From assembly GCA_963575745.1 (NCBI GenBank), contig CAUYUJ010019082.1:124001-188000 (forward strand): a stretch of 64,000 bases of DNA, given 5' to 3'. The notes under the pieces were generated by a model. That model was not told the origin of the DNA. It saw nothing but the letters and a program-made list of their open reading frames with translations, and did not search any database. Positions 37,851 through 63,639 of this stretch are shown here, piece by piece (the stretch's first letter is position 1; each line of letters opens with the position of its first letter). Position numbers and translations under genes: made by a program. Origin of the DNA: Prorocentrum cordatum. Its lineage: Eukaryota; Sar; Dinophyceae; Prorocentrales; Prorocentraceae.

Positions 37851-38550
37851 ATTGTCATCGTCCTACTCCCCCTCATTATCTTGCTCCTCCTCCGATTTCT
37901 CCCCCATCCTCCCCCTCTTGGGGTACGACGTCTTATCCAACCCTTTATTCCACTGCATTATACTCCGCATCCCTGATTCGGGTACCTCGTCTGAGCTGGT
38001 GGGGTTACTTTTTTTTGTCAGCGGCCGCAGGCGAGCGCGCCAGCGGCGAGTCCACTCAGAGCGGGGCGCGCAAGCTGGTGGGGTTATTTTTGTTGATTGG
38101 CGGCTCGAAGGACAGAACCAGCGAGCGGGAATAACGTCTGGGCCACAGGGCGAGATAATTGGCTGCAGAGGCGCATAGGCCGTTGTAGCGAGTGCACATG
38201 CCAGGGACAAAGTGACCCTCATTGGGGACTGACGCAGGCGGCCCGACGGTGGGGACGCAAGCGCATAACCAAAAGCGGACGGAAAGGAGCTGTCGCACAC
38301 GTGGCGCCAAGCTCCGACCGTGCCGTACAGCGCGAAAGGGCGTGGAGCACGCCGCACTGTGGCGGCACGGGGTGGCCAGGTGTGGCCGCACCGCCCATGC
38401 AACAAGAGGTGAGGCAAAGAAACAGGAGAGACACGGCGGGCGCTAGGGCACCCGACAGCAGGAAAAAGGAAGGCACAGGGAGAAGCCTCACTCGCAGTGA
38501 CTCACAGGACGCTCTTGGGCGTGAGAGCGACCAATACCCAGTCAGGGACC

Positions 38551-38890
38551 AGTCGTCAATGCCGTCTGAGTCCACAGCCTGCAACTTGTCCGACACGGAA
38601 GATCGGGGGCGTAAAGCTGCAAGCATTGGCCAAGTCACCTGACCCGGCCTGCCGGGGGGACCGCGATGATCTGCCAAGAAGGATGAACCACTTGTGCAGG
38701 AGCTTGAACGCGAAGGCGACGACACCAGTCAGCGAACCTGTCGTCGAAGTCGCCGGCGTTCACCGCGCGCAACTTATCCGACACAGAAGATCGGGGGCAC
38801 AAAGTCGCAAGCGTGGCCGGGACACGTGCGACGGACCTGCCGGGGAATCCGCGATGACCTGCCAAAGGATGAACCACTTGTGCAGGAACG
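38551..38890. repeat. tandem duplication, about 189-bp period
   Basis: CAACTT[GA]TCCGACAC[GA]GAAGATC (near 38581 and 38770) and GAACCACTTGTGCAGGA mark two adjacent copies, about 85% alike by eye. Both strands have short frames with no family match. 37851-38550 shows nothing recognisable. Confidence 0.8.
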
Positions 38891-39219: not shown

Positions 39220-40030
39220 CCACTGGGGTGGCTGAACCTGTCAGCTCCCCTGTCGAGATGCCCCTTCACAGCGCTGGGGGCGCAGCCAAGAGCCGCAGAG
39301 ACTTGCGAGTGAACGCGGGGGGTGCACCCAAGAGCCGCTGGCAAGACAGCCATGTCCATGGCCTCCTCGCTGGACTGTGCCACGGCACTGGCACGTCCTC
39401 AACCAGCTCTCCAGTCGTGATGTCCCTTCACAAAGCTGCGGGCGCAGCCGAGAGCCGCAGATACTTGTGAATGAAGGGGGGGTGCAACCAAGTGCCGCTG
39501 GCACGACGCCATGCCGAGGGGCCCCACGCTTGGCCTGCGCCGCGGCACTGTCAGGTCCTCGACCAAGGCGCACTTCGCTGGGGGCCATGGGGGCCTGGAG
39601 GGGTGGCTGAAACCGTCAGCCCCCCTGTCATGATGTTCCTTCGAAGCGCTGGGGGCGCAGCCGAGGGCCGCAGAGACTGGCGAATGAAGGCGAGGGGTGC
39701 CATCACGTGCCGCGGCGCGACAACCGTGCCAAGGGCCTCCACTCTTGGGCTCGACCAAAGCACTGTCCCGTTCCAAGCCAGGGCACACTTCGTTGGGGGC
39801 GCAGCCAAGAGCCGCAGAAACTGGTGAATGGACGGCGGGGGAGGGAGGAGGAGGAGGGGAGGCGAGTCCAACCCGGCGCTGGGTGACAGCCCAGTCGCAT
39901 TCGCGGGGCAGGATCGGACCCGGCGATCAGGATGGGGGAGGCCGCCAAGCGCCGCACGGAGTGGTGGACTTCTCGGAGAAGGGTGCGGCCGAGAGCCGTA
40001 GAGCCTTTACATGGTGGGGGAAGCCCGCGG
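39220..40030. repeat. dispersed repeat, five copies, centred on GCGCAGCCRAGAGCCGCAG
   Basis: Copies of the core start at 39280, 39442, 39655, 39799 and (weaker) 39984, spaced 144-213 bp, each preceded by a CCCCTGTC-GATG block and mostly followed by ACTGGYGAATG. The same core lies in the spacer before the helicase ORF at 48667-48686. Long frames here repeat the same peptide and are not called as genes. Confidence 0.75.
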
Positions 40031-41082: not shown

Positions 41083-42968
41083 CTACCATGCACGCCACGG
41101 TGCTTCTGACCCCGATGCCCCTGACCATGCAGCATCCATGCCTTCAGTGGTCCATGGGGGGGCCTTTGCAGCCTCCTTGCCTTCGACGGCCCATGGGGGT
41201 GGGCGTCCGCTGCCGACGGGCCCGTCGGCGGTGCGCAGTCTGGTGTCGCGCTGCGTGAGTTTGCGATGCTTCTCCATGTCACTCGGCCAGTCGACGTGGA
41301 GTTGGTATTCTCTATCCATCTTGTAGGCGTCGAACCCCATGTTGCTCCATGCCTGTAGGAACTCGCTGCATCGTTGTACTGTGTTTAGCGTGGGGTTGGA
41401 CTTGATGTAGGTACTCCCTTGACTGAAGGCTGCCTTCCTGGCCCAGACGCTCCAAGCTCCGTGAAACGCGCCCCCAGCGCCTTCTGCATCCGTGTGATCT
41501 TGTCGGGTGCTGGTTCGTCCCTTGCAACGTCTGCCTCGTCGATAGATCTCAAGTGCATGGGGAGGCCTCCCATGGGGTCATCAGGGCGCGCTGCTGGTAT
41601 TGCCGCAGACCGCGCGTCGTTCCACGAGTCCTGGGTGTTGCGCCATGGTCTGGATGAGTTGCGAAGCGGCGGTGTGGCTGAGCGCTCTCTGGTACTGACT
41701 TCGTCAACCGCGGGTGCACGGCGGCCGCCTTCGCCCCCCGAGTGTCTAAGAGTCCTGCCGTCACTGCCTGCGTGAAGGCTCCGGGTCCGACCCTCTCTGG
41801 GGCGGGCATCGCCTCGGGTGCATCCGTCACTGGGTGTTCCTCTGGCGGCAGCCTGCGAAAATGAGGACCAGGCATCTGAGTCTGCCCTGAGGGGATGTCT
41901 AGTCCAGAGCGGGGGGGGGACTCTGGGCCATCTTGTCGCCCGCGGGGGCTGGAACGCAGGCGTCGCCCTCCAGATGGGCAGGGCTGGCCTGCGATCCAGA
42001 TTCAGCTGAGGTATCCGGCGGGCTGGAGCGCGCCTGGGCGTCCGTCTCGGATTTCTTGCCAGCCTCGTCGCCCCAGTCGATCCCTTCCACATCGCCGTCG
42101 CCATTCCAGCGCTCTGGTGAGGACGGCTCCTCTTCTGGGACTGCGTCGGGCTGGCCAGGTGCGGCGGGCTGCTGGGGTGGCACGTTTGCGCGGGTCGGGG
42201 GTGCACCGTGATCCCCAACGTGGCGGTCAGTTGCGGGTGATTCCTTCCTCCAGGGCCTGTTGAGCCAGCTGGCGGCAGGAAACTCGCCACGGGCTGTGCC
42301 TCTCGCAGTCGCGTCCTGGGGCTGGGCAGCGAGGAGTTCAATAGTTCCCCTGGTTAAGTCGGAGTTCTCCAGCCTGGTGAGGAACAACGTGAGGACATGC
42401 AGCGGCTGTCGGTAGGGGCCCTGCCCTTTCTGATTGGCGAGGTTGCCTGCGTAGCGCTCCCAGTCCTCCTGGTACTTCGGGTTGCTCTCCACCAGGTGTG
42501 AGACTACCTTGGCTGCCGCTGCCCTGTCCGTCCCACGGGATGCGCGGAGGGCGGCCATCGTTTGGGATTTCTTCTCCGTATATCGACTCCAGAAAAGGGG
42601 AGCAGCTGCTCGATCGGCCATCTAGTTTCGTCGGTTATGTCGCCCTCAATGCTCTCACCCTGGCGCTGTGCAAAGGCGGCCCAGAGAGTGTAGATTGTGT
42701 GGCTCCACTCGATCAGGTATTCCACCAAGGCACGAACTTGGGTTTTTGACTCGTCCCCTTCCAGACGGAGGGTGGAATATGCGGGCAGCTGAGGAGCCGG
42801 GGGCGGAGGCAGGTCGGGGAGGGAGTACTTGTTGGAGGCCCTGTCGACTGAACCATCTTGCTTACCGAGCTCTTTGCGGTGCAGTGCAGAGCGGTCCTCG
42901 CGGGGTGGGACACGTGCGTCCGCGTCTTCCCCTGGCGCCCTGCTACCTGGGGAGAGGTGCGCGGACAT
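41083..42968 (-). CDS. trailing ORF of the giant retroelement, unknown function
   Basis: Frames 42504-42968, 41899-42621, 41385-42341 and 41083-41340 form one broken reading. The N-terminal part looks folded (KTQVRALVEYLIEWSHTIYT, then YTEKKSQTMAALRASRG, VSHLVESNPKYQEDWERYAG). The middle is Pro/Ser/Asp/Glu-rich linker and the end returns to ordered text (SNPTLNTVQRCSEFLQAW, FDAYKMDREYQLHVDW). The starting Met (42968) is 28 bp below the helicase stop, consistent with re-initiation. No family recognised; a nucleic-acid-binding or Gag-like role would be a guess. Confidence 0.45.
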
Positions 42969-42995
42969 ATCGTAGCTGTAGCTGTCCTCAGGAAC

Positions 42996-45900
42996 TTATG
43001 ATGTGGTCTGCCGCTTGGTAGGGAAAGCGGGATATACCTCGGTTGAGTAGTGGTCGAGAATGTGGTCGAGGACGCCAGATGCAACATTCCAGATGTGTAC
43101 AAGGCACCTCCTGCAGGCCCATTCCGCGTTCCACTGCTGCCTGATCCATAGGGAGGGCATTAAGTCCCACGGTGGCAAGCCTGTCTGCTCGTTGCACATA
43201 GCTTCTGCCTCAGGGCGCCACATGAAGCATCCGAGAGCAGGACGGCCAAGTTTCCATTCAAGCAAGGGGGACCCGGGTGGACAGGTGTCGCACGTGGCTG
43301 AGTACATTTTGGTGCGGTGCGTTTCGGCACCGAACCTACCATCAGCGAGCCTGTGGGGTGGGAGGGTGGTACCGGCTCTTGATGGCTGGAAGGCGCGCGG
43401 CGCGCGCATGACGATGTCCTTCAGGGTGGAAGGAGTTGGAGCGTCGTTAGGACGTCCGAACCCGAGCGGTAGGCTAGTCAGTGAGGGGAGGGTCCGGGCT
43501 TTCTTGCGTGCGCGGTTCTCTTCCAGTCTGCGCTTGTACTCCTGCAGGCGCTGCTGCATAGTCTTCTTGGTACCGCCGTCAGCCTGGTTGGGGTCGGGGG
43601 CCTCAACTCCCCTTCTTTCCAGGGGCCTGACCCACCACAACTCGCAGAGCCATCTGCAGTTCTTTCCCTTTATGTATGCCTGCGCGCGGTTCTGTGCTAG
43701 CAGTTCACGCGTATCGTCGTCCTCCCAGGTGCCGGCTGCGCCCTGCAATCCCGTGTTGGCGCAGTCGTCGCAGTTGTAGCTGGCACTCTGCTGCAGCCTG
43801 CAGAATCTCTCATCACGCACTACAGGGGGGGAGAGCACTGTGCAGGGGGCTGGGGAGGCAGGGAGGTATTCGTCCAAGCGGCGGTTGGATATCGCGATCC
43901 CACCTCCGATGTATTCCAGGTCTGCCATGGTGTGTGGACTGCCGAGTCCCTCCTCTGATCCGACCAGCTCCTTGTGCAGCTGGCAGATGGAGCAGTCTCC
44001 TACGCTTAATTGGTTGACGTCCGCAGGTTGGACTATCACCTCAAGTACGCGCATGGGGGCCTCTAGGGTGAAGTCGTGCTCCAACATACCTGACCATGTC
44101 TGAGGGCAGTCGTGTGCGGATGCAGTAAGGTGGTGATATGCAAAGGTGGCCAGCGTTCTGATGTGGCGAATGACCTCCTCAATCTTGGCGTGGAGGGAGG
44201 CGAAGTTGGCTAGTTCGAAGCCCCAAGTGGCGGCAAACTGGCTGCGGAACTCCTTGTGGGCTTCCTGCCAGGGGAGACAGAGGCCCATCGCCGCTTCTAT
44301 GACGTCCCCCGTGGCTTCTGGATGTGGGAATGGCCAGAGCGTAGCGCGCGGTTCCCGCAATTGCAGCATCATCACCACCAGGAGGACTCTGAGCGTGGGG
44401 GTGCTGAGTGGGCGCCCGTCGCTGCCGCAGAGGGCGTGCGCGAGCGTTGATTCGATCTGCTCTGGGCGGAGCAATGCGTGCAAGTGATCCATCCCAGGGT
44501 GCACCCTGTGGCGTTTGCAGTTGCACGTGGCAGGGCTCCAGGCAGCAGGGAACTGGGGGAGCGTGCCAACGGGCGTGCACCTGCTTGAGGGCTTGGGGCG
44601 GCGGTTGTTACCAATAGCATGGGGCAGCGGGGGGAGCGAGGTCAGCGGGGCACTCAGTTGCGCCTCGTGCCAGGGAGTGCCCAGCCCCAGGAACCAGACC
44701 AAGGCTGCCCACGTCAAATTGTATACCAAGTTGCTGGCGTCGATCCCGAGTTCCACGTCCAAGCAATACCCGAGGTGGCTCCAGGCCTTCCGATCGAGGC
44801 TGCCCGGCTGCCTCGGGGTGGCACCCATGGACCACTGGTGGCGATGGAGCCTGGCCACGGTGTAGAGGATGACTCCCGCTGCTGGGTCGTCGACGAGCTT
44901 CTGCATGCTGTCTGCGATGGCTTCGCCGAGTTTGTCCCAGGAGAACAAAGGGTCAAGCGGGGCAGCGATGCGCTCCGCGAAGCTGTTCTCCATGGAGGTC
45001 TTGGCTTTCTCGATGGCGTCGTCTAGACCTTTTATGGTATCGTCCCCGGTGCGGGTGGGGGTCGCAAGGATCCATGTGGTCAGGTCCCTGATGGGGTCAA
45101 ATTCCTCATCGGTCTGCAGCCTTAGTCTTGTGCCCAGGTCGTCTCCTTTGAAGCGGATCCATGGTTTGGCAAATCTCCCGTACTCGGACAGCTCACGCAA
45201 GCGAGCCCCAGTGGCCGTGCCAAACACCCTTCCGTCCCCGATGATGACCACGTTGGTGGTGGCGCGGGTGATCGCGACGTTCACCCTGTTGGGGTTGTCC
45301 ATGAAACCCCAGTCATGCCATTTGTTGGACCGGGTGGTCAGGCATATGACTAGATCTGCCTCACCGCCCTGACTGGAGTCTATAGTGGAGACGGTTAGCT
45401 TGCCGCTAGCAAGGTGCCCCTCCGCAATTTGTCGCAGCCCAGGGAAACGCAGACCGATCCTGGTGAGGGGGGAGCTCCACTGTGCGAACACGCTCACGTG
45501 GTCCTTGGTGTCAGCGACGTATGCAGGGGGGTGCGCGGGGTGTCCGCCAGCCTTAGCTGATCCAGCCTTGCCCTTTCCCTTTGCCCTTGGCCTGCCCGAG
45601 GGCGCCGCTGATGCTTCTTCCTGACTGGGGCCAACCGTTCTCAAGGACTGCGCACTGTAGCTGGTGACCCAACACGACGCGCACGGTTGTGCCCTTCTTC
45701 ATGGCGGGCAGGAGTGCTCGTACGATGTCCACCGTTTGCGCGGCCTCCGGTAGGTTCGCGCATCCTGAGTGGAGTCTTGGGGTGACCTCGAGGGAGGGGT
45801 TATCGACAAGGAGGAAACGATGCCTTTCTTCAGGGTTATGGGGGGCCGGCGCGAGGTCCCGCAGCATCTTCTCCAAGTCCTCCGTGGGGGTGACCGTGGC

Positions 45901-48650
45901 TTCAGCGAGATCGAGCTTCGAGCCTTTTGTTGTCCCAGGGCAGTAGCTTCCGCCACGGTAGTCCTTCGATCAGTGGCCTTTGTGCGAACGGGTCGGTGAG
46001 TCCCGACCGTAGTGTTATTGTAGAAGGCGACATTGGGCCAGGACCGGAGCAGGGGGTGCATGCGATAGCAGAGGCTTAGTTACACCACGGCTGATGTTTC
46101 ATCTCCCAGGGCGTTGTGCAGCCGATCGAATGTGGAGAGGCACAGCCCGAGGTCGGCAGCCTTTCTGGAGAGGACGGTGGGGGGAAAATTGTTTGGGGTC
46201 GCCCACCAGCACCAGATGTCCGCCGGAATGGATGACGCTGTCGAGCGACATGGCTGCCATATGCTCATGGGCTTGTCCTGCCTCGTCGATGATGAGCAAG
46301 GCGACTGGTGCAGCATGCCTGAGGGCCTCCGCAGATTCGTGTGTCGCGATGATCGTCTTAGCATCCCTGAGCAGCTGTGCACGGAATGCGGTGAATTCCT
46401 TGGAGGATCCGCCATCGTGCGGGGGACGTTTGCGCGTTCTGTAGAAGTGCCCCCCCCTGGGGTGAGCGGGGCAAGTCTCTGCGCCACCCGGAATTCTTTG
46501 GCCAGACGGACGCATATGTTGGGGAAGCTTGTCCTATGTTTTAGTCTCGCCGCCTGGCGTGCACTCCCGAGGCCAATGGCGGGCTGATCCGCCGCTGTGT
46601 TGGACCCTGCGGTTAGTGCAACTACCTGCCCTTCAGGGAGTGAGTCGGCCCACGTGCCCATGGCGGCGACGGAGAAGACTGTCTTGCCGGTACCCGGGGG
46701 GCCATGTACGACTGTAACGTGTTGCTGCATGGTGGCAGCGAGGGCCCGCGTCGCGTCGTCATTGAGCTGGTGGCGCTTGGCGCCTTCGTCGAGGGTCAAA
46801 GCTGGGGGGGGGTCCCTGACCCGTTGAAATACCTGTCCAGTAGCATTGTCCACTTCGTGGTCGGAGAAGGGAGCGTCTGACGGCGCCTCGTTCGGCTGCT
46901 GCGAGTCGGCAGCACTACTGCTCACCACTGCGGGGGGCATGCCAGGAGACTGTGCCCTGATGGTGGCCCCTGCCCGTGAGAGGAGGGAGTTACCGCAGGC
47001 CCTGGTGTTCTCCACGTTGTTGGCCAGCGTCTTGTTCTTTCTGTCGGTAGTGCGGAAAGTGAGGAGGTAAGAGATGACGTCGAGTGGCGTGCCCGCAAGG
47101 TCTGCAGGGTACTGTTGCAACTTGTAGATTTCGCTGATGGAGGTAGAGATCCGCCAATACTGCAACCTAGGAGGTGCCTTGTCCAGCCTGTGCCAGCCGT
47201 CTCCCACCTTCTCTGGCTTGGGGTGCCTGACGTCAGCGTGGAACGTCCCGAATCTGTCCGTGTCGTATAAGGCCAAGGCTTAGTTGGTGGGGAACTTGGC
47301 TCCCTGTCGGAGGCCCAGAGCCTCGCAGTCATGCAAGGGGATGGTGCCTCCAAAGTCTGGCGGCCACAGAAGCTTGAGCGAGGCAACCTGATCCACAGTT
47401 GGGCTGGTGATGCTGAGAAGCAGCGCACGGGCTTCTTGTCCTGCATCCTGACCCCTGAGAAGGATCTTGAACTCCTGTGGCCATTGCAGGTGCAGCAGCA
47501 GCTTCCCCTCCTGGATGGGAAATGCATTGCGCAGCTTGTACTTGTCGAGGAGTACGCTGGGGGTCTGCTCGTCGATGGGGGTGACGGACACACCTAGCGC
47601 GCAGCTCTGCCTTCTGACCAGGTCTGTTCTGGTCTTGGCGAAGCCGTCCCATACAGTTTCGGTGGCTGCCATGCACTCGGTCCAAGCAAGCCTGTCGACG
47701 GTGGTTCCTCTTTGTCGTTGATCTTGTTCCCAATGTTTTGGAAGGTTCATTCCCGGGTGGACCGAGCCCATGGGAGTGTGGAGGAGGAACTGGGCTGCGG
47801 GGCTGTTGGTGGGGACAGCGAATAGACGGGTGATGTCGTCTGCTGCTGCGGCCGCTGATGACTCTATTATTGCCTGCCTGCTCAGGGGGGGAGATCGTCC
47901 GGCCAGTCATCTTCACCCTCGCGCACGGGCCTGGTCCGATCCATTGAGTCCTGAGAGGAGGCTCTGCTGGACACATTGGCCCGTCTCTCCCGCGGGAGCA
48001 GTGAGGTGGACGGCCGCCCGAGTGAGGCGGGGGGCGCGTCTGTCGGGGGCGGATGCGGCGGTGCCGCGCCTCCCTAAGCTCTGGCCGTGCTCCAGGGTGC
48101 CCCCCCGACCCCCTCGATACTGGCTGGGCGGTCGTAGGTCCGTCGAGTGTACGGTGTCAGCGGAGGTGGAGAAGTCGAACGGGTCGTCGCGGTACGGGAA
48201 GTTGACCGGGACGTAGTCCCAGTCCTCTGGGAAGGTCCACCCTGGCAGGTGTGGCAGTGGGCCCACCTTCACTGGGCCTGGCAGCTCCCAGCCGGGCCAG
48301 AAGTGTCTGTCGATGGTGCGCCTGGTCACCTGGTCGAGGTTTTTACCCAGGGTCCTGGTCCAGAGGTTGTTTTGATCAGTATACAACCTGGGGTCAGGCC
48401 ATCCGGTGCCTTTCTGCTTCTCTGCTTCCTTGGCGTGGTTTCCTCCCAGGAGGTGTTCTTTGCCTTCGCAGTACCTCTGGCACACCTCGCACCACCAGCA
48501 CCATTCATGGTTGAAGTGTGCCCACCTGAGCCATGGGCACTCGCGCGCACGGAAGTGACAAAGGCCATCTATCTTGCCCGGGCCTTCTGCACAGGGGGCG
48601 GTGGGGGAAGGCCAGTGGACCAGTGGCCCGTTATTGCTCTTCTTCGTCAT
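42996..48650 (-). pseudogene. UPF1-like superfamily 1 helicase with U1-type zinc finger
   Basis: The start Met (48650) begins MTKKSNNGP, after an 88-bp spacer. A U1/matrin-type zinc finger is at about 48440-48500 (CEVC ... H-L-L-G-G-N-H). Helicase motifs follow in order: Walker A GPPGTGKT (near 46681-46703); Walker B LLIIDEAGQAHE (about 46264-46300); GDPKQF (near 46195); YRMHP (near 46045); motif V TIDSSQGGEAD and motif VI NRVNVAITRA (both in the 882-residue frame 42996-45644). This is the UPF1/SMUBP2 pattern: ATP-driven 5'-3' unwinding of RNA or DNA. A long C-terminal part of about 600 residues has scattered Cys/His pairs. The frame is broken at 47885 (G7), 46450 (C8) and 46179 (G6), and by in-frame TAA at 47280 and 46080. 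With those five sites set aside the motif set is complete. Confidence 0.85.
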
Positions 48651-48738
48651 CCTGGAGAAAGGGAGGGCGCAGCCAAGAGCCGCAGCACTGGTAAATGTGA
48701 GAGGCGGATGACGAACTTGAGCCGCAGAAGCAATGACC
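48651..48738 (-). promoter_or_regulatory. 88-bp spacer with repeated 20-bp motif before the helicase ORF
   Basis: The motif at 48667-48686 (minus sense CTGCGGCTCTTGGCTGCGC plus C) lies 16 bp upstream of the helicase start codon. The same core occurs five times at 39.3-40.0 kb beyond the 3' end of the unit. It could be an internal translation or trans-splicing signal, or a common repeat. No AG-rich ribosome-binding site is expected in a eukaryote. Confidence 0.35.
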
Positions 48739-49620
48739 TCAGTTGTCGCGGGGATCGACCGATCGGCGATCCGATCGGAGCGGGGCAGGGGGGAGAGAAG
48801 GGGAGGGAGGCTTTTCCAGCAGGACCGCGGCCGCGGCCGCTTCCGCGGGGTTGCATAGGTTAGTCTCCCGTAAGTCCAGGCAGGGAAAATGCGCGGGCCA
48901 GGTGGGGGCATCGCACGCCCAGTGTATGCGTGTGGTGACGGCAGTCACGCCTTCCTTGCGGAGGGCGTCGGCCCAGTAAACCCCGATGGTGGCAAGGCTG
49001 TCCGCGGCCTTGTTTAGCCTCCGTCTGACCGCTTGCCAAGTGAGCACCCAGCCTGCTCCTTCCGCCTGCCCGAGGGCGTCCTCCATCTGCCGGGCCAGGT
49101 GAAGCCTTCGGTACCTGGCGGCACCGGCGCCGTATCGGACCGCGGCGAGGTTGTCGCCAACAATCCTGGCTGCCCGAATTGGGCCCTTGAGGTGGGAAAG
49201 CAGTGCCAGCCCAGCTCGGCAGCCTGCCATTTCCGCTATCTGTGCGCTGTCACAATCGGGGAGTGCAACGATGGCGATGGCCAGGGCCCGGGGAGAGCCG
49301 GTGGTGGGGTTGTGGTGCCGCAGGATGGTCCCTGCGCCGGAGACCTTGTCCGCGCCTTCGATGGACCTGGCGCCACCGTCAAAGGTGACCTCATAGGGCC
49401 ATTGGGTAGAGTTGGAGTCGGGGAAGGGCGAACTACGGACTCTGACCTTGTCGCCGGGCTCCAGGCTCGCGTTAGCGATCAGCGTGGTGGCGTGGAACCC
49501 GCGCCCGACAGAAGACGGAGGACCAGTTGGCAATGGGAAAGTCGTCGGTCCTAGGGCAAGGGAACCACCCGTTTCCTGGGGGCATCCATGCAGCCCGCGT
49601 CTGGGGCGCTCGCAGGACAA
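48739..49620 (-). CDS. RNase H domain, C-terminal end of the retroelement polyprotein
   Basis: The frame ends with a stop at 48739. Type I RNase H residues: Asp in VTFDGGAR (codon near 49378), Glu in QIAEMAGCRAGLAL, Asp in RIVGDNLAAVRYG, and Asp in LNKAADSLATIG. All four acidic positions are present. The domain removes template RNA after cDNA synthesis. A C-terminal Ala/Pro tail of about 60 residues follows. It is preceded by the zinc-finger segment in a different frame. Confidence 0.85.
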   Translation of the reverse strand: MSCERPRRGLHGCPQETGGSLALGPTTFPLPTGPPSSVGRGFHATTLIANASLEPGDKVRVRSSPFPDSNSTQWPYEVTFDGGARSIEGADKVSGAGTILRHHNPTTGSPRALAIAIVALPDCDSAQIAEMAGCRAGLALLSHLKGPIRAARIVGDNLAAVRYGAGAARYRRLHLARQMEDALGQAEGAGWVLTWQAVRRRLNKAADSLATIGVYWADALRKEGVTAVTTRIHWACDAPTWPAHFPCLDLRETNLCNPAEAAAAAVLLEKPPSPSLPPAPLRSDRRSVDPRDN

Positions 49621-50299
49621 CGATTATATCCCCCGGTCTGTGGTGTCTGGTGACAACTGGGAGCCTGCGAATCTCACCTCCGGCCCTGCGGGTATGCCGC
49701 TGCATGTGGGGCCTAGCGGCTCCACAGATCGCTCTTTCGGGGGCGGTGCACGGGTTGCAAGTACTGCAGGTGTCGCGCATGACGGACCAGACAGCTGTCT
49801 CGTCTGGGTTGCCGCTCCTCGGGGGTTCGTCCACCCCTTGTCCCTCATCCTCGCTGTCACCTTGCTGGTCGACGTCGGCAGCCACTATGTCGTGCAGAAT
49901 GAGTCTGGCGGCATCGACGGCATTAAGGGGGGTGGCTGTGAGGTTGACGCAGCACCTGAAGGAAACTTGATGTAACACTTTCGCAAGCAAGGGTTGGTGT
50001 TCGCCACTGCTGGTGATTGCTTGGGCGAGGGTCGGTGGGTCGTCAGGGCCCCTGACGGTGCACCAGGCTAGTGCCGCGGCTGGGCACCAGTGCCACACGT
50101 GTTCCGTGGTCGCTTCTCCGAGCCCACAGAGTGGGCATCGTCCGTATGGTCCGCTTCTGTTGGGCGGTTGTAGGTGGCCCCGAGAGCGTGCGCATGCTTC
50201 TGCTTGGTCCCGAAGGGGGGGGGGGGGGGGATAATGTCCGGAGGCAGCGCTTGCCAGAGAGCGGATGCATGTGGGCCTGGGCCGATGCCTCTCGTGCAC
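49472..50299 (-). pseudogene. post-RT zinc-finger segment of the retroelement polyprotein
   Basis: Contains CPLCGLGEATTEHVWHWC, a C-x2-C-x8-H-x4-C finger of the kind found after RT in many LINEs (near 50095-50150), where it helps nucleic-acid binding during target-primed reverse transcription. The segment continues with ordered text to RNase H. A G16 run at 50215-50230 coincides with the frame break upstream. Confidence 0.7.
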
Positions 50300-50539
50300 C
50301 AGGCTGCGCCTTCATCATCGGGCCCGGCCGTGATCCACGCGTTCCTGGCTGGTGCTCCACATGAACCTGCGTGGTCTCCTTTCGTCGTCACCCCGCCGTC
50401 TTGCCGAGCCGGGTAGACCGTTGCATAGGACACGGATCACGTGGTGCGCTTCAATGAAAGAGGCGCAGTGGTGCAGCAACTGGAATTCTTCCCCGTTGGA
50501 AGGTTGCCATATCCTCCCTTGGCTGGTGTCCGGGAGCCA

Positions 50540-52821
50540 TCATGAGAGGTTGCGGCTGTGCATCTGGGCCCATGCAGCCGCATAGGTGATCCTGCCAAAA
50601 TGTTTGCCTTCAAGGAGATCGGGCTGTTGATTAACACGCTGCAGGGCTCGGGCGGCCTTTCGTTCTGAGATCATCTTGGGCCTGGGGGGGGGCACCTCAG
50701 GCTCCCGAGCTGCTTGGCTTGCCCATCTCAGCAATTTGTTCCACCTGTTCCTGGCGCGCTTCCTGACAGGAACGGGACCCCAGAAGTCGTTAAGGGCGTG
50801 TGCTCTGGCTGCGACCGCGCGGGCAGTCGCGACCGGGCACCTGGGGGCGCCCTGCACTTGGAAGCGCATGCCCACTCCCGTGAGGACGTAGTCGGGGACT
50901 CAGGAGGACCCGGCCAGACCAAGCGCAGTCCTTAGCTGGCCGCGTAATTCGCGCTCCTGCACGACGTCGGGGAGGGCGTCGCGGGCAGCGCACGGCGCCA
51001 GGGCGACAAGATGCGCGTTCCAGGCGGCTGCAGTGCGCGAGGGGGACATTCTTGCCAGGTGCAGGGCCATGGCTCTTTCTCTGATCTTGGGAGGGGGACG
51101 GTCCCATGTGCCTTTGCCTAGGGCGTCTTCCTGCCCTTTGGTGAGCCCTCCGTTCAGGGGGGGCTCATCGCCTTCCGCTGCGCGGGAAACGACTACTGCC
51201 CCCAGGTAGGGCCACTGGTCCCGTTCTGAGGGCCCTCCGAATGGGGTGTGCCCCATGAGGGCACGCCACCACTTGTGGTTTCCGGCAGGGACGAGGACTG
51301 TCTTGAAAGTGCAGTTGCAAGGGCGCTGATAGGGGGTGCACCAGTTGGGTCGGCCCTGCCCTGTGCTGCTTTCCACGAGTGCCTGGATGAGCGCGCTGGG
51401 GAGCCCAGAGATAATCACGTTGTCACCGTCCTGTTCGTAATGGACGGGTGCCTCTTCCAGCGCGGCTCTGAGTGCTGCGGAGTCTGCGGTGCGGATTCTT
51501 CTGCAACGGTGGGCCTCGACCAGGAGTCCAGCAGCCTTGGCGGCCCAGGGAAGGGCAATGGCCGCACGTAGAGCCTGTTTCGTTGTGCTGAGTAGGGCAG
51601 CAAGGTCGTCAACGCAGGCGGGGTCGTCGTCGCCTGTGATGGAGGAGATCGCTGAGATGAGGGGGTCGTACCCCGTGCTCCAGAGAAGCGGGGAGGCGGT
51701 GCCGCCCATCCCAACCGATCTCAGCAAACGTCGCTCGGGTCCTTTTGTACTTGTCCCTGCATATCTGTACCCTTCGTTCGGCAACCAACGAGTTGAGGGC
51801 TTGCAGCATCCACGAAGAGAGCTTCCACCTACGGAGGAGGCTATCCACCCATTGAAGTGATATTCTCTCAAAGGCCTTATTTTGGTCGCAGAAGATGACT
51901 GCCGCGCCAGGAGCACTCCCTAGTGCAGTGGCGGCGTGGTTGACGAATGCCTCGACGGCGGCGGTGTGTCGGCCCAAGGGTGCGGCCCAGGCTAGGCCTG
52001 GTTCAGATGGGGGCTTGGGGGGGGATCCCAGCTGCAGGGTCACCTTCGTGATGTTGGGGCCGCACTGTCCTCCTCGCTTGGCTGCCTGGTTAGGGTTGAA
52101 GAGCGGTTCGACTGCCGGACCTATTAGGTCGGCCAGGGAGGCCCCATACAGCCGTCGAATGCAAGTGGGCAGCTGGAGCGGTCTCATGTGGTTGGGGGAT
52201 TCAGCACCGGGCTTCTTCCCGATCCACACAAGCAGGTCAACAGAGGGCCCTAACACCTCCTCGATGAGTGCCGGGTTGAGGTCGGCGGCGTGCCGCGCCT
52301 GGGCGATGAGGCAAGCTACGAATCTGGCCCCGGGATGATATGCTTCGCACGGCACACCGTCCACCCCTGGGGCGCTCCCACCGGGGGGCGAGGACGATGG
52401 CTGCCAATCTTGCCCAATTTGGTCTGGGCCTGTCTGTGACCTCGATGCCGGGGTTACGCTGGAAGTATAGGTCGAGTAGTCTCCTGGCGGAGTCCGGGAG
52501 CGGGGGGGCAGAGTGCCATATCGCGCTGCGGCTGTCCCAGAGAACGTTGTCGATCTGGTTGGGCCTGTCGTGCCACGTGCCGTTCTGGTCACGTACACCT
52601 AGGATGGCATGGGTCTTCTTGCATATCTCCCGCCCCGTCCTGTAGTGGGCTGCCAGGGGCGAGCGCTCCGCACCAGGTCCTCTTTGTGATGGGGACAGCC
52701 TAGCTGCTCTTCTCTGAGTAACCTCGGCGTCCCACGTTCTGAGCCACCGGCCTGCCTGTTCTGGGGAGAGGTCTTGCCCGTCCCAGCCATGCTCGTAAAG
52801 CCAAGCCGCCAGGGCTCCCAC
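50540..52821 (-). pseudogene. reverse transcriptase of the giant retroelement
   Basis: Three main frames: 52237-52821 (lead-in), 51609-52598 and 50900-51916. Motifs: APGVDGVPCEAYHP, the segment LLVWIGKKPG ... MRPLQLPTCIRRLYG (fingers), VIFCDQNKAFERI (palm motif A with catalytic Asp, about 51862-51900), GMGGTASPLLW (motif B), and ACVDDLAALL (motif C, CVDD, about 51600-51625). This is non-LTR-type RT; a Cys before VDD is unusual but the two Asp are intact. The thumb continues to 50540. Frame breaks near 51750 and 50890. Its neighbours (endonuclease before, zinc finger and RNase H after) match a LINE polyprotein. Confidence 0.88.
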
Positions 52822-52949
52822 AAGGCGTGTCGTCTCGCTCTTCTGGCTGGCCGAGGCGAGCAGGAGGCCGGGCGAGGCGCGCGTCCTGTGGGTTTTTCAT
52901 TTTCTCCATCAGTCCAGCAATGCAGAGGAGAGAGCGTGCCTGCCGAATC

Positions 52950-54120
52950 TCATGAGAGTATGGAGGACAGGTGGGTTGAGGCTACCGTCCAGCGCCCTCC
53001 CATCAGCGCTCTGCTGCGCACTGGGGGGGGGGTGCTGAGAGAGGCGTCGCCGTCGTCGTTGTCAATGTGCCAGTCGGGGAATCCGCCCGGGCAGGCTGGT
53101 CTGACCCAGTCGATCGGCTGGAGGAGGCCGCTGGGGTTGACGGGCGGGACTCCGAGGGAGAGCTCCAGGTGGGCGTGGAGCTGGCGAAGTTCCGCGTGTG
53201 CAGCGGTGGGGAGGTTACTGAGGTCCGCAGCCCTTATATTATCGTCTCTTCTGGCCCTCCTCGCCCCCTGCGGTTCGAGTGAGATGAGGGCGTGGTCCGA
53301 CAGCGTGAGTCTCCAAAGCTTACGGGGCTCGTATGCGTAGATATGCCGGACTGGGCATGCAAACATGTCGATCTGCGATTCGCTCTCCTTGTCGATTTGG
53401 GTGGGACCGGGCATGTGCATGGCGGCTGAGCCGGAACTTGTAAGAACGTCCCTCAGAAGGGCTGCGGCCTCCACCTCCCCGTCTCTTGGGTGGTTAAGCT
53501 GCAGGTTGACGCCCCTGCCCCAGTAGGTGTCGAGTGGCTCCCAATGCTCCGCCGCTACTGCGATTCCTGATAGGGTGTCCTCCTTTCTGGCAGGAGGGAG
53601 GTACACTGACACCATCCGAAATCTCTTCTCGCCATGCTGGACAATCGCGGCAATGGCGCATCCAGGGACTAAGATCTGCTGCTCCAGGAAGGAGATACCA
53701 TGGGGGAAGAGGACGCCGATTCCTCCGGCGAGTCCTCCGGTCGGCCCAGGGTACCCGGGGGAGGCCACTAGAGTCCTCGCGGGAAACATGGTTCTCCATA
53801 CCTCTGCCTCATGCTCCGACCAGTGCGTCTCTTGGATCAGGGCGATCCTCTTATTCATCGTGACCTGGGCCAGGAGCGCGTGTTTGATTTGGTTCTTTGC
53901 TGCGGTGCAGCTTCGGAGGTATCTTACGCTCCAGCAGCTGATCCTGGGCAGGCTGCTAGCGGGGGTGGCGTCAAGGGCCCGTGTCACGTCATCTAGTGTG
54001 AGGCTACCGCACATTGTGTTCCATGTGGGCTGCCTCCAGGGGTCGGTGTAAAGGAGGGGCCAAAGGCTCCTCGGTCCGCGAACCTTGTGCTGGCATAGGG
54101 CTTCGAGTGCTCTATTGAGC
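52950..54120 (-). pseudogene. AP-like endonuclease of the giant retroelement
   Basis: Contained in the open frame 52950-54461. Landmarks: IALIQETHWSEHE (catalytic Glu, about 53804-53845), GGLAGGIGVLFP, FRMVSVYLPP, GRGVNLQLNHPRDGE at the position of GGDxN (near 53485-53525, Asp not present), SQIDMFACPV, and LSDHALISL (catalytic Asp-His, about 53280-53305). The fold is the exonuclease-endonuclease-phosphatase type that nicks DNA to prime reverse transcription. After the domain a linker leads to RT. The frame is continuous across the whole domain, so the GDxN change is not a frame artefact. Confidence 0.82.
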
Positions 54121-54223
54121 GCGTTTCGTGCCTGCATCCAGGCGTGGGCGCGCGGCCCCGGCACAAGGGCGTGGCGGGGGGGGCCCAGCGCTTGGTGGAG
54201 CGCGGTGGGGCCCTCGGCGGAAT

Positions 54224-55861
54224 CTAGAGGCTCGTCAGCTCGGACAAGAGGGCTTCTTCGCGCCGGAGCTGTTCCGCAATGTCGTCTGGGAAGGGGTGGT
54301 TCCTGAGCTGTGCCCACGGGCACTGCCTTCCTGCGCACGCCCGCGCTGCGGTCCATGCACGCGCTATCTGGCTGCCCGACGGGGCGGGGGTGCAGGCCAG
54401 TGCCGCAGAGCGCCTTGTGTTCCAGGCACGCATCGCGGAGACAATCCTGCGTTGAAGGCACCGCGGGTCGAAATGTATGCCGGCCGCGTCGTAGAGCGTC
54501 CTGCCGCTTACTCCAAGTCCGCGGTAGTGCCCGGCCAGCCCTATCGCTCTCGCTCTTTCGTCTGCGCTAGAGTGTCTGAGCCCGTGAGTTCTGCCCTCCT
54601 TCACCAGCCATCTTCCCCAGGCCCTGACCTTGTCATCTGTGGCCGGGCTCTCCCTTTCCCTTCCTGCCATGACCAGTCCCAGACCTTCGGTGCATCCTGG
54701 GAATCGTTGCTCCGCACCGCACTCAGCGAGCATCTGCCTTGCCCCGTGTTTCAACTCCGCTGGGTTCCGAAGGAACCACCTGTAGCTACTGTCTTCGTTG
54801 TATAGGAGACATAGGTGATGGGTCTGGTAACTGCTGGGAAGGATGGCGTCCGGATCGTCCGGGGTAGTCCTGGACTGCGTCCAGGTCGGGATCCTTCCAT
54901 CTGGCCTGTGCGCCCATCTTGGTTCCCAGGGGCTGGGGAGACGGGTGCATGCTATCGTGCTGGTGGGGGGGTGGGAAGTTGCCGATCCGAAGGCGCTCTC
55001 TGGGGCTGGCCACATGGTCGCCCGCGTTCATCTTGACTGCCCACTCGGGGCTGAGCTCCCCCATGGCCATTCTCATGGCATCGCGGTGGGCCAGCGGCAT
55101 GGAGGCCACGTTCTCCACGAGGACTAGGACGGAGACGTCTGGCCTTCTCTTGCTTGCGAGGTACCAAGCTGTCGGGACTGCAAGGAAATGGGAAGACTAA
55201 GCCCCTGCCAGTCCGTCCCTGCCGGCGTGAGAGCCTGCCGCTGAAAGGTTGTTGCAAGGGGGTCCTGCCACTATCAGGAGGGTGCTGCCCTGCTCCAGGG
55301 AGTCAAAATGCTTCTCCCGAGGGGTTCTATTGTCATGGGGGTCGTTACGCCTGAAGAGATCCCATACATCTTCCGCTATTTGTCTATGCGGGGGGCCTCC
55401 ATCTTGAGGATCTGGGGCGTTTGCCCATCTGCGCGCCACTGCCTCCGCCGCGGTCCTATTGTGCTCCACAAAGGCCGAGGATCGAAAGCTGTTGGTGGCT
55501 CCTAGCTTGCTCGCGAGGTCGCCCACGGCGAGTCTGGCGATTCCCCAGCCGTCGACGAGGGGCACCAGGTGTAGGGGGGAGCGTTCGCTCGTGGAGCCGT
55601 GGTGTACTGCAGGTTCGCCTCGCGCTGCCCTTTGCTCCTGCTGCGTAAAGTCCCTTTCAACCGCGTCCTGTATTCGGAGTCTACCCGCGGTGTTGTCGAC
55701 TGCCTGATCGGGTCCACGTCTGATGGTGCCTTGCTCGTGCAGGGGCCGTAGCGCGTCCAGGATGGCGTTGTTGTCCAAGCCGGCTACCTGGTAGGCGGCT
55801 AGTACCTGATCAGGAGGGGCGACTGGGGATAGCCCGGTTGGGTTCGGTGGGCGGGGGGGGG
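54224..55861 (-). pseudogene. C5-cytosine DNA methyltransferase domain
   Basis: Motif I: LVPLVDGWGIARLAVGD (about 55520-55570). Motif II: AFVEHNRTAAEAVARRW. Motif III: AEDVWDLF. Motif IV: VAGPPCNNLSAAG with the catalytic Pro-Cys (GPPC codons at 55255-55266). Motif VI: VLVENVASM (ENV at 55107-55115). Motif VIII: SPRERLRIGNFP (about 54966-55010). Motif X: RTLYDAAGIHFDP (about 54466-54505). Order and spacing are those of DNMT1/DNMT3/bacterial m5C enzymes, which transfer methyl from S-adenosylmethionine to cytosine. Motifs I-VIII share one frame interrupted only by a TAG (55197-55199). The frame changes after motif VIII at a G7 run (54965-54971). It precedes the endonuclease in the same polyprotein direction. 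Retroelement-borne methyltransferases have been reported in dinoflagellates. Confidence 0.85.
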
Positions 55862-57630
55862 TCGACCCTGAGTCTTGCCCTCCTCGCCCCTTCTCCTGGT
55901 CCTTGCGGCTCAGTCGAGGTGCGCGTGAGACCCCTTCCAGGTCTACTTTGCACCGGTGCTGTTGGTTGGGATTCCCACATCGTTACTAGAGACCGGGAGT
56001 TGTCCTCCGTCGGCCTCGCGGTTCTCGGCCTTGCCCTAGGCCGCGTCTTCGTTCCCAAGGGGCCTGCCTGCCGGGCCCTTCTATTTCGACTTCCGTCTTG
56101 CCGTCTCACGGGGCCCGTCGGCGCCCTGTCCCTGCTCTGCTGGCTTGCCTGCTGCTGGCGTTGAGTTGCGGTCGCATCTGCAGCTCCTGCCCGTAGAGGC
56201 TGACCCTCTGAGCTGGGGATCCTTTGCGGGGGGATGAAGGGTCGTCCTGCCTCTGCCTCCTGTGATGGTCGCCCGGTGGGATTGCCGTGGAGCGTGTCTC
56301 CCCTGAGATTGAACCAGGTTGGGTCGACGGCCCTGAGCCTGCTGGTATTGGGGCCGAGGGTGTCCACCATGGCGACCGAGAGGATCCTGTCGAGGACCTC
56401 TTCGGTTAAGGGGAGGAAGGGGTATGCCGGGCCTTCAGCGCTGGGGATTCCGGCTGCTGCGGACTGCAGGCGCGCGCAGGCGGCGTCCGCGGTAAGGGCG
56501 GCGTTCTTGGACAGGACGTCTCTGCCAGCAGAGCGCCTCGTGCCGATCGGCGGGTGCTGTGCCCAGTACGCCTTAAAAGGGGTTGATCAACCTGTGAGAT
56601 AGGTAGGCTCTGGTGAAAACCTGCCTGATCTGCTTTTCGAGCTGAAGCGTGGAAGTGCCCCACGCGATGGCGGTGAGTACGTGCATCCCAATCCCCCCCA
56701 CTGCGCAGGGGGGCCGAGGGCGCGGAGCGTCTCTGCTGCGCTGTTGAGGAGGTGGCCCCACTTGTGCCCCATACAGGGCGGCAGGTGCGAGCTTGCTCTG
56801 GGGGGGTCGCCCCTTCCCAGCGGGTCGCCAGGCAAGCTTCGGGCGACGCTGTCCGGAGGGGGTCTTCTCCTGCAGATCCGGGCTTGGGGTGCGTCCTCTG
56901 CTTGTGCCTCGCTCCCTGGCTCCTGGTGGATTTGACTGCCCTCTCCACCGCTGCCCATCGGCTCGCCTCTTTCCGCCTGGGGTGTCGGCGCCAAAGGATG
57001 TGCGGCACCTCGCTCTTCCCGCTGGGGGGGCGGGTGCGTCTGGCCCGGGCTCGTGCGCGTGCCGGAGGGGGGCTGCTGCACGTGCTGCTGAACCGTCCCG
57101 CGGTCTGTCGGAGTCTGTGCCAGGGGCTGTGCCTGTGGGGCCCGCACATCCCCGCGGTCGGCACTGCTGCGTTCCCCCCCGCACTCCTGGCTGGGGGCGC
57201 TTTCCATCCGCGTAGTCGGGCTGTTGCTAGCAAAGGCGCTGCCTGGGTGGGGGGGTCCCCTCGCTGCTCCTCTCGCCCACACACCGTCTCAGGTTGTGTG
57301 CTGGGGGACTGGTGACCTGGTTGTGCGGGCAAGGTGGCCGCGGCGTGGCCGCCTGCGTCGGTGGGGTGGGGTGGGTGGGGGGGGCTGAGGGAGTGGGGGG
57401 CTGCTGGCCGGGGTCTGCGGGCCCCCGGCGGCAGTCTCCTGTTCGGCTGTTGGTGGTCCGTCCTGGGTCCTATTGCGTGCGACCTGTGGCTGCTCCTGCC
57501 CTGTCCGTGCGGGGCGCGTTCGGGTTCCGTCGGAGGGGTCTCCATGGCTGCCCCTGGGGGCCCTTCGCGGCCTGGGAGCTCTCCCTGGATCGTGACGTAG
57601 CCTGTCCTCCCGGGCGGCCCTCCGCAACCT
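55862..57630 (-). pseudogene. polyprotein N-terminal linker, low complexity
   Basis: 55810-56370 begins MVDTLGPNTSRLRAVDPTWF and becomes Arg/Pro/Gln-rich up to the G9 run at 55853-55861, where the frame shifts into the methyltransferase. 56400-57630 is very GC-rich, with overlapping Arg/Pro/Gly frames on both strands and no recognised domain. The start of the polyprotein is not determined. Confidence 0.4.
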
Positions 57631-57639: not shown

Positions 57640-59206
57640 TCATTGGAGCCTCTCGTCCGTACCGGGGGCCAGCCTGCGCGTTGTGTCGCTGTCGATGTCT
57701 GCACCTCTGCCCCCTGGAACCTCGAGCCAGGGGTGGTGGCCAGTGTAAGTTGGATCAGGCTCAGGGGAGAGCCACTGCGAGAAGGGGGGCTGTCTGGTGA
57801 CCTCTTCCTTTATACCAAGCTCCCTGATGAGCTGGAGCAGGCGATCCCTGCCCAGTGCGTTAGGGTCCGTCAGCTGGGGGATCCATGGCCGCAGAGAGGT
57901 CCCACTTGTATCTCCGAGTGGGTCTACCCTCTTCTTGTCGTCGTTGTTCGAGCACAAGTCTGGTCTGGATGCTTCTGGCCAGGTCATGCGTGCTTTGTTC
58001 GTCAATGCAGGCCTGGAACCTGTCGAGCATGCCCTGAACGCATGTGACGGCATCGCTCTCCGCCCTGACCAGTGCGTCTCCTGTCTCTGCCCTGGGTCGG
58101 GTCCTGCGTGAGAGCACCTCTGCAAGGGGGGGGTATACCCTTGGGCGAGCCGGGCCAGGGAGGGAATCCACAGCAGCATGCCTTCTTGGAGGTATGATCG
58201 AACTGGGAGGCTGGCTGATGCCAATTTCCAGTTCCTCAAGCGTCGGAACGCGCGCGGGAGTAGCGTCTAGCTTCGCATGGTGCACTGGCCCGTGTAGCAG
58301 CTGCAGGGACACTCTAGTCTGCGGGCGATCGGCACCTCGATTGGCCGATCTGAGATCGGCCTCAGCGGATAGCGCGATGGTGGCCCACATGGGGGTGGAG
58401 GTGTATAGGTGGCCGTGTTCCCCACAGGTGGTGATGGATACAGCCCCTCCCGCTGCCGCCGCAGCTGAGAGGTGCTCCCCTGGATGGAGTATGGTGCTGT
58501 AATCTCGCAGGCCGTCCCTGTCCTCCGAGGCTATGCGGCGGGCAGGGTTTCGCCCGCCCATGACGTCGCCCACCTCGCGCAACCATTCCTCGGGCATGGC
58601 CGGGGGGGTGGCTCTCATGATGTTCGCTCCTTCCCTGTCCTCGGCCCCCTCGGGCAGTGGCCAGGCCCCTGTGTGTAGCCTGGTCCCGGAAGAGCCTATC
58701 GAGGCTGAGAACATCCGTAGCGTGGTGTGGCTAGGGATCCAGGGGTCTGGGCGCATGGGCCTTGGGCGGGGGGAACCGACCTGTCTTCCTTGCCGGTCGA
58801 AGGGCATGGCTTCCATTATCTGAGGCTGCACGGCTCGTCTGGGGGCCTGCCGGACAGCTTCTTCCATGATTGCCTCAATGTGCTCTGTTCGGGCCCTGGG
58901 GATCCCTGTGTCTCCCCTGATCTGTTCTCTTGAGAGGGTGGCCGGGAAGATCCTGACAACCCGTGACCCCGCCGTGATACAGCTGGTCCCGCAAAAGGCG
59001 GCGGACATGTTGGCAGCGACCCTGAGTCGGACTCTAACCTGCGTCATGTGCGTGTACTCACCTGTGTCGGGGAACCAGGCGCACACCGAGGTGACCTGCT
59101 CCACTGCTCCAGTGCCTACAATGGCTTCTACAGCTTCGATGAGCTCTTGTCGTCTGGATTGCCCTAGGTCTGCTATGTTCCAGCGTAGGTGGAAACCATC
59201 TTCCAT
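57640..59206 (-). CDS. unrecognised ORF (448 residues) upstream of the methyltransferase polyprotein
   Basis: The frame 57860-59206 is open for 448 codons, followed by 57640-58239 in another frame. The N-terminal third looks folded (GFHLRWNIADLGQSRRQELI, TQVRVRLRVAANMSAAFCG, SRVVRIFPATLSREQ); the rest is mixed. The C-terminal piece ends with alternating short helices (LTDPNALGRDRLLQLIRELG). No family recognised. Strand and closeness suggest it belongs to a retroelement, either as ORF1 of the giant unit or as the tail of the LINE upstream. Confidence 0.4.
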
Positions 59207-59239
59207 GTCGGTTAGCCTGACGAATGACGGGCCGCCATC

Positions 59240-60246
59240 CTAGTTTCCCTCTAGAAAGAGTCTTCGGGGGCAACGGGCAGGGGAGTTGCGCGCGGACCCA
59301 AACACTTTGGGGGGCTTTTCCTTGAGGTATCGCAGTATGGGGGCGGCGATTCTCTCTGGAGTCTTTATGATGAGAACTCCTCCCCCGTTGAGCCCTACTC
59401 GGTACCCGAAGGCTGCCGCGGCGTCTGCAGCGGTTGCCAGGGCAAGGCGCGTGGCGGCGTTGGGGATCGATGGGGATGTGAACGGAGTCGGACGCCTCAC
59501 TGGACCTCCAGGTACTTCCATTGATGTCGGTTGCCAGCGCAGCCTGCGCCGCGACCTGGAGTTCTTCAAGGGGGGGTCTGCGGGGATCTGCATGTGTGTC
59601 CCTCTGGCGGGACGACACCGAACTACGTGGTGGTAGAGTGGTTCTAGCCCTGCCTTTGTGAGGGTCTCGTCCCTTGGTAGGGGTGCCATGATGGTGGCCC
59701 ACTCCACGTTCCCTGCCGACTGGTCGTTCCCCTCTAACGTCTGCTGCCATCTCGTGATCTGAGCAACTATGGCATCGTTTCGCTGATCTGGTGCGAGTAT
59801 GCGAAGGGCGTCACTGGTGTCTTCGTCCCTGCCTCCCCAGTGTACCACTACGGATAGTGGGATCAGGGTTCTTTGGGGGTGGTCTGTTATGTTGAGCTGT
59901 GCCGCCACGAGCTGCACCAGGGGGGGTTAATACCTCCTGTTATCACCAGATTCCCTACGGGGACCAAATGCGTGATCATGTTCGTGGCTGGGTACCCCCA
60001 TTGTGCGTTGGCTACGGCTATCAAGTCAGTTGGGTCGGGGCCTCCTGGCGTCGGGACTCCTTGCCCTGTTAGAGCGAGGATCCTGCATGGGCCGTCGCCC
60101 GAGCCTGCTGCCGACAGCGCAGCTTGGATCTGGGACGCGTTGGCATCCGCTATGAGGACGGTGGGGGTGGCGCCCTGCCCTTCCTCGGGAATGGTTCTGT
60201 TGCACACCAGTTCCTTGATCTGCTCATAGGCGCTAAGGCCTGCCAT
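59240..60246 (-). CDS. two unrecognised overlapping ORFs
   Basis: 59887-60246 (119 residues, GATPTVLIADANASQIQAAL, then GYPATNMITHLVPVGNLVIT) overlaps 59240-59917 (225 residues, ending FGYRVGLNGGGVLIIKTPER and PILRYLKEKPPKVFG). They probably form one protein broken at the G8 run near 59920. The last segment resembles a small alpha/beta RNA-binding fold, but that is weak. 60247-60588 has no open frame of note on this strand. Confidence 0.35.
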
Positions 60247-60588
60247 AGCTATGCTGGTGCCCGTATTGTCCGCGTGACTGTCTCCTAGCAGTGGCCCTCG
60301 GGTGATTGCCAGGTCCGCCCCTACCTCCTAGGCTGCCGCCATGAGTAGGGGGGCCGGGAAGGCCGGCGGACCTCTCCTTCTGATTTCTCCCGGCGGATGC
60401 CTGGCTAGGAGGGAGGCCCATCTTGACTGGGTGATGATTGGGATTGAGCGCATTCTCTCCTGTCTGGAGGGAGGAGCCGGGGCATTGCTGACTCCTGACC
60501 CTCCTTCCTCCGTTCGTCTGGAGCATACTTTCGCTATCATGATCCGCCTCCATTTCTTCAGGTTGCGACGGGGGGCGCCTATGGACTG

Positions 60589-63622: not shown

Positions 63623-63639
63623 AAAAATGTTCTCGCCTT

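Follow-up and report, generated by a model that had tools for sequence, protein, structure and literature searches.

Does a UPF1-like RNA helicase form part of a retrotransposon that also encodes a DNA methyltransferase? This question is raised by a 64,000-nucleotide stretch of Prorocentrum cordatum DNA (assembly GCA_963575745.1, contig CAUYUJ010019082.1, positions 124,001 to 188,000; hereafter the window, in which all positions are numbered). Long interspersed nuclear elements (LINEs) usually have one or two open reading frames (ORFs). In the window, a series of LINE-like blocks is followed by a helicase ORF (ORF3) and a further ORF (ORF4), and a preliminary description placed all of these in a single unit at 41083..56370. 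From the sequence, we consider it probable that the locus is a decayed, large, multi-ORF non-long-terminal-repeat retrotransposon of the SymbioLINE-Dnmt kind, with an added downstream ORF3-ORF4 cassette ahead of a repeat-bearing 3' region. SymbioLINE-Dnmt is the name given in passages of PMC5890265 to the DNA methyltransferase (DNMT)-bearing LINEs of Symbiodinium dinoflagellates. The copy studied here is broken, decayed, and inactive as read.

Motif strings and profile matches, all on the minus strand, place a C5 DNMT, an apurinic/apyrimidinic (AP) endonuclease, a reverse transcriptase (RT), a CCHC zinc knuckle, RNase H, ORF3, and ORF4 in this 5' to 3' order (Table 1), and both the domain order proposed earlier and the 88-nt gap before the helicase ORF were recovered. 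The strings were read by eye. The gap to the next ORF measured 27 nt rather than the 28 given before, and the limits of the unit had probably been drawn too narrowly: coding sequence extends to ~60.55 kb on one side, and on the other, 39.28-39.84 kb holds repeats that are related to the ORF2/ORF3 spacer. The element probably spans ~60.55 kb to at least 39.2 kb, which amounts to ~21 kb or more, and a candidate 3' end possibly lies near 37.9 kb, ahead of an (AGG)n run. The longest A run seen in 37.9-41.2 kb was an A8 at 38009-38016. The (AGG)n run, which reads as (CCT)n at 37650-37893 on the forward strand, is situated just past the possible 3' end and could be a microsatellite tail. The best path of a codon model showed a minus-strand coding signal from ~60.5 to 41 kb that was scattered over many frames, with frame changes inside the DNMT, RT, and helicase blocks; one frame was kept throughout the endonuclease block and throughout the RNase H block. 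The model, whose training set consisted of ORFs from this region, serves as a map, not as a test; it also gave lower-scoring coding assignments across much of the remaining minus strand.

The helicase was examined by profile searches after its peptide pieces, like those of the RT, had been joined with X. The joined helicase pieces matched Pfam AAA_12 (E 6e-25), AAA_11 (E 3e-14), and Viral_helicase1 (E 1.3e-5), and gave E-values of 6e-20 to 9e-20 against NAM7/UPF1 structures, with query residues 14-281 aligned to NAM7 without a large gap. The NCBIfam IGHMBP2 model gave an E-value of 3e-30, yet this was far below the cut-off of that model. Motif III is decayed, and the other motif regions among I-VI are recognizable. 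These sequence matches firmly identify the protein as a UPF1/NAM7/SMUBP2-like helicase of superfamily 1B (SF1B), and the UPF1-like identity suggested in the preliminary description is borne out by the NAM7/UPF1 match. ORF3 runs from an ATG at 48650-48648 to a stop at 42998-42996. No UPF1 CH zinc domain was found ahead of the helicase; in this decayed copy, two N-terminal pieces of ORF3 matched no Pfam family, and its zinc finger gave no Pfam or NCBIfam match. For the ORF that holds the C-terminal part, scans returned only helicase families, on its N-terminal side, and the predicted structure of that part (pLDDT 37) was too poor for use. Of two scanned ORF4 pieces, one gave a sub-threshold match to MLTR_LBD (PF17765), which we do not believe.

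Among the blocks upstream of ORF3, RNase H matched PF13456 (RVT_3) above its cut-off (E 1.9e-5), with its motifs at 49392-48982. The joined RT pieces matched RVT_1 with an E-value of 1.3e-6 (28.7 bits against a cut-off of 29.6; E 0.0014 in a single frame) and contain motif A as FCDQNKAF and motif C as CVDD, motifs A, B, and C falling at 51899-51593. By eye, the endonuclease motifs QETH, YLPP, IDM, and SDH were located within 53846-53277, where the GDFN motif was unrecognizable; neither Pfam nor PDB gave a match to this block. The DNMT motifs I, II, IV (GPPCNNLS), VI (ENV), VIII, and IX-X were likewise read by eye, in order, at 55568-54464. Its profile match (PF00145, E 0.011-0.014) was below cut-off, and a PDB search gave a best E-value of 0.013 and a weak resemblance to the PCNNL stretch of plant DRM-type enzymes. 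Two pieces of the probable ORF1 gave no family over its cut-off, and the N-terminal part of ORF1 is followed by a proline-rich, barely coding stretch at 56.7-57.6 kb.

The best internal evidence that the helicase belongs to the element is a repeat at the ORF2/ORF3 junction. A 43-nt part of the 88-nt spacer (48665-48707) has four homologous repeats past ORF4, at 39.28-39.84 kb, and ORF3-ORF4 therefore sits between copies of one repeat. Local alignment of the spacer with the four repeats gave scores of 52, 42, 41, and 36. The score of 52 was reached by two of 375 segments tiled over 41.4-63.9 kb, both overlapping the spacer; the next best segment scored 35, and the maximum in 200 shuffles was 29. 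A 21-mer core, chosen after the repeat was seen, had six matches at no more than three mismatches against 0.02 expected. With no preset pattern, a blastn search of the window with its 36-64 kb part as the query gave the spacer-repeat match (E 7e-5) as the best link from 41-60.5 kb; a link of this type arose from only one other place (59.44 to 35.12 kb, E 0.036). Repeat searches required at least 20 nt or an E-value below 0.05. The segments 61.13-60.56, 57.64-56.70, 54.23-54.05, and 43.04-42.94 kb gave no match to the 3' region above shuffles. Two spacer-like pieces at 40752-40767 and 39980-40001 were dropped, as their scores (27 and 24) were within the shuffle maximum. The 21-mer also occurred once, exactly, in viral contigs (in L001) and not in genome contigs. 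L001 has a 22-mer and scattered short matches in common with the sequence, including translated ones of 14-30 residues, and we treated these as chance.

Base composition was compared with that of two other LINE-like stretches of the window, unit A (61130-64000) and LINE C (29000-33300). The observed/expected (o/e) CpG ratios were 0.68 for ORF1, 0.76 for the DNMT block, 0.79 for ORF2, 0.74 for ORF3, 0.80 for ORF4, and 0.82 for the 3' region, against 0.95 for unit A and 1.12 for LINE C. In 250-nt tiles, ORF3 did not differ from ORF2 (p = 0.54) and differed from unit A (p = 0.005) and LINE C (p = 7e-7); these p values are uncorrected for the nine comparisons that were made. CpG depletion relative to the other elements is thus present, as a modest effect in one copy. 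Codon usage correlated at r = 0.97 between ORF2 and the helicase part of ORF3, whereas r was 0.72-0.81 when three further coding regions of the window were used.

The helicase appears to belong to the element because of the spacer repeat, the ORF2-like CpG level and codon usage, and the 88-nt spacing. Together with the 27-nt gap before ORF4, this evidence lies within the locus itself, and to that extent the single unit claimed in the preliminary description stands. Several observations weigh against it. The 5' and 3' ends of the element are undefined. The evidence comes from a single copy, and five protein queries against viral contigs and one against genome contigs found no relative, a negative of little weight in viral and prokaryotic collections. 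Both the DNMT and the endonuclease are under profile thresholds, and the helicase query has approximately 110 residues more than NAM7 between its two aligned blocks, so that an insertion or intron may lie inside the helicase. The CpG ratio of the 3' region was not significantly different from that of unit A (p = 0.13), 4-kb stretches elsewhere in the window (8-12 and 20-24 kb) are also low (o/e 0.81-0.82), and codon choice may contribute to the CpG level. The codon usage of unit A is similar too (r 0.79-0.91, and 0.88 against the helicase part of ORF3); given this similarity, and since ORF1-ORF3 formed part of the training set of the model that supplied the frames, resemblance in codon usage carries little weight. 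Finally, the junction repeat could instead mark the seam of two elements.

Such a seam would separate two tandem elements, namely, a DNMT LINE that ends after ORF2 and a distinct, perhaps non-autonomous, ORF3-ORF4 retroelement with a like 3' repeat, which was inserted or joined by template switching. The repeat flanks ORF3-ORF4 on both sides, as expected if the spacer were a remnant 3' end, and unit A, which is probably another element, shows that head-to-tail elements occur here. However, the matches of the spacer are confined to the repeats at 39.28-39.84 kb, which lie at least 1.3 kb upstream of the candidate terminus at ~37.9 kb; tiles from 39.2 to 35.5 kb, where this candidate lies, score no higher than 20 against the spacer; and the whole 3' untranslated region of a LINE would be squeezed into 88 nt. 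We regard the two-element arrangement as unlikely. Still more improbable, in our estimate, is that a UPF1-like gene of the host, or its retrocopy, lies beside a DNMT LINE by chance. In favor of this explanation, UPF1 is a conserved eukaryotic gene, and the extra residues relative to NAM7 leave space for an intron. Moreover, passages of PMC11453091 describe retroposition as prominent in dinoflagellates, with leader remnants upstream of >20% of genes. A chance neighbor nevertheless fits poorly with a same-strand spacing of 88 nt that holds the shared repeat, with a CpG level in ORF3 like that of ORF2, and with a second broken ORF 27 nt onward. In addition, ORF3 has no full spliced leader before it, just the octamer GGCTCAAG at 48716-48723.

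How ORF3 could be expressed within one element is suggested by its start. The sequence CCCTCCCTTTCTCCAG followed by GATG directly precedes and includes the ORF3 ATG and is the sole match to a polypyrimidine-AG-ATG pattern, written post hoc, on either strand of the window. In an organism with mRNA trans-splicing, the polypyrimidine-AG before this ATG would be a plausible acceptor, and ORF3 could have its own message while the full-length RNA is used as template. With the spliced-leader sequence given in a passage of PMC6616646 as the reference, CCGTAGCCATTTTGGCTCATT at 6231-6251 on the minus strand was found to hold 19 of the 21 dinoflagellate leader bases (the first 19 unbroken and the last two changed; 0.01 expected). 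Only the octamer matches the leader in the spacer; it occurs eight times in the window against 3.8 expected, and we do not claim a leader relict there. Three of these leader-end octamers stand in a row at 33155-33192, at the start of the first ORF of LINE C, as though a LINE transcript had been trans-spliced and then copied back. Traces of the leader in the window support a dinoflagellate host.

In the single element that we favor, the DNMT would close ORF1, and ORF2 would combine the endonuclease, RT, CCHC knuckle, and RNase H. A full-length RNA would be copied by target-primed reverse transcription from the nick made by the ORF2 endonuclease, and ORF3 would be made from a separate trans-spliced message or through reinitiation 88 nt after ORF2. 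UPF1 is established as moving 5' to 3' on RNA. The helicase would most likely travel in this direction on the element RNA within a ribonucleoprotein, where it could remove bound proteins and structure along a very long template, free the first cDNA strand from the RNA-DNA hybrid, or do both; as a second choice, it might block nonsense-mediated decay of the multi-ORF RNA. Self-methylation of the element DNA, proposed in the preliminary description, is also possible, but in passages of PMC5890265 the one SymbioLINE-Dnmt enzyme tested showed no de novo DNA methylation in yeast, and the authors discuss an RNA target. A more far-reaching version, which we put forward only tentatively, is a four-ORF LINE of the 20-kb class that combines an epigenetic enzyme with a UPF1-like helicase, in which the helicase cassette would be a second message produced by spliced-leader trans-splicing and the operon-like element would resist or hijack RNA surveillance. 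A related proposal concerns function and is compatible with one element: the helicase may be a silencing suppressor or an RNA-surveillance factor, not a replication factor. Passages of PMC6338049 describe weak suppression of RNA silencing by insect LINE helicases in a plant assay, and passages of PMC5563155 propose an Upf1-like quality control of two-ORF LINE RNA for these helicases. The analogy with viral suppressors is loose, however, because the helicase resembles UPF1 more than it does the SF1 helicases of viruses, as the AAA_12 and Viral_helicase1 E-values above indicate, and we hold this role to be possible but rather doubtful.

Table 1. Blocks of the element and its putative 3' region, listed 5' to 3' along the minus strand.
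Feature	Position	Strand	Basis
Probable ORF1, N-terminal part, broken, without known domain	57640..60553	-	codon path; ATG at 60553
C5 cytosine DNMT block, two main frames	54227..55982	-	motif series and sub-threshold profile
AP endonuclease region of ORF2, one frame	52953..54237	-	motifs alone
RT, three frames	51593..52871	-	RVT_1 and motifs
CCHC zinc knuckle of ORF2	50081..50137	-	motif CPLCG..EHVWHWCP; no profile match
RNase H, C-terminal end of ORF2, stop TGA 48741-48739	48739..49623	-	PF13456 and motifs
ORF2/ORF3 spacer, 88 nt	48651..48738	-	ends in polypyrimidine-AG one base ahead of the ORF3 ATG
ORF3 N-terminal zinc finger, C-x2-C-x12-H-x5-H, C2H2-like, matrin/U1 type	48435..48497	-	by eye
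ORF3 UPF1-like SF1B helicase, motif regions I-VI, several frame changes	45258..46703	-	profiles and motifs
ORF3 C-terminal part, one open frame	42996..45257	-	ORF scan
ORF3/ORF4 spacer, 27 nt	42969..42995	-	ORF boundaries
ORF4, broken, ATG 42968-42966	41131..42968	-	ORF list and codon path
Putative 3' untranslated region, four diverged repeats around TTCATTCACCAGT-TCTGCGGCTCTTGGCTGCGCCC	39225..39845	-	repeat searches
Further downstream duplication, 79% identical, ~187 nt spacing	38538..38887	-	repeat searches

The window contains several other features. Unit A immediately precedes the element, shares its minus-strand orientation, and extends toward the window end; it encodes a different LINE RT with a YADD motif (RVT_1 E 6.8e-5 with joined pieces, below cut-off), and its CpG ratio is unlike that of the element. 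LINE C, also on the minus strand, is LINE-like with a well-matching RT (RVT_1 E 1.3e-19), and Pfam showed no helicase in four ORFs scanned near it, at 25.7-28.1 kb. On the minus strand at 15164-15811 and 12867-14597, we noted a weak match to RNA 2'-phosphotransferase (Tpt1/KptA; E 1.2e-5, 25.9 bits against a cut-off of 26) and, in a nearby ORF, a sub-threshold RING-like finger. Two large arrays, seemingly of the same 73-bp repeat by eye, occupy 19670-20632 and 20982-22781 in opposite orientation, 350 bp apart, and GC-rich 16-bp tandem arrays at 2463-4729 enclose a 100-N assembly gap (2897-2996). A minus-strand ORF at 7361-8515 resembles a fragment of a Copia-type integrase by eye, without a Pfam match. 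Rfam (gathering threshold) and a tRNA scan gave no matches.

If the proposed arrangement is correct, it would represent the joint capture of epigenetic and RNA-surveillance machinery, a cytosine methyltransferase and a UPF1-family helicase, by retroelements. It would also offer a testable route by which very long templates are copied or evade decay, and a clear case for asking whether retroelements run extra ORFs through trans-splicing. The same layout in other copies would make the UPF1-like helicase a new kind of LINE cargo. Among the matches listed in the open-access literature, we found no dinoflagellate LINE with an SF1 helicase and no DNMT LINE with a UPF1-like helicase in an ORF of its own.

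The closest known system by layout is SymbioLINE-Dnmt, in which, according to passages of PMC5890265, a DNMT ORF precedes a second ORF that encodes endonuclease, RT, and RNase H. Here a DNMT block assigned by motifs likewise lies ahead of ORF2 on the same strand; within ORF2, RNase H passes its profile cut-off, the RT falls just short of it, and the endonuclease is read from motifs. Low CpG, a published trait of those elements, and a dinoflagellate host are also shared. By contrast, no helicase, ORF3, or ORF4 is described there, the word "helicase" being absent from the main text of PMC5890265, whereas the present element is ~21 kb or more and has a DNMT motif IV (PPCNNLS) that is weakly plant DRM-like. 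The same source describes SymbioDIRS-Dnmt3, also a dinoflagellate retrotransposon with a DNMT, as having a DIRS order and a tyrosine recombinase; here, the motifs indicate an AP-type endonuclease, and scans of 20 window ORFs revealed no recombinase. Helicases are known from insect TRAS/Jockey LINEs, which, as described in passages of PMC5563155 and PMC6338049 (see also PMC4686597), carry viral SF1 helicase domains. These domains resemble the present one in lying downstream of the RT, in being preceded by a zinc-binding motif, and in their proposed Upf1-like role, but they are virus-like and fused to the C-terminus of ORF2. The helicase characterized here is instead UPF1-like and occupies a separate ORF after the stop, adjoining a DNMT LINE, and the genome looks like that of a dinoflagellate.

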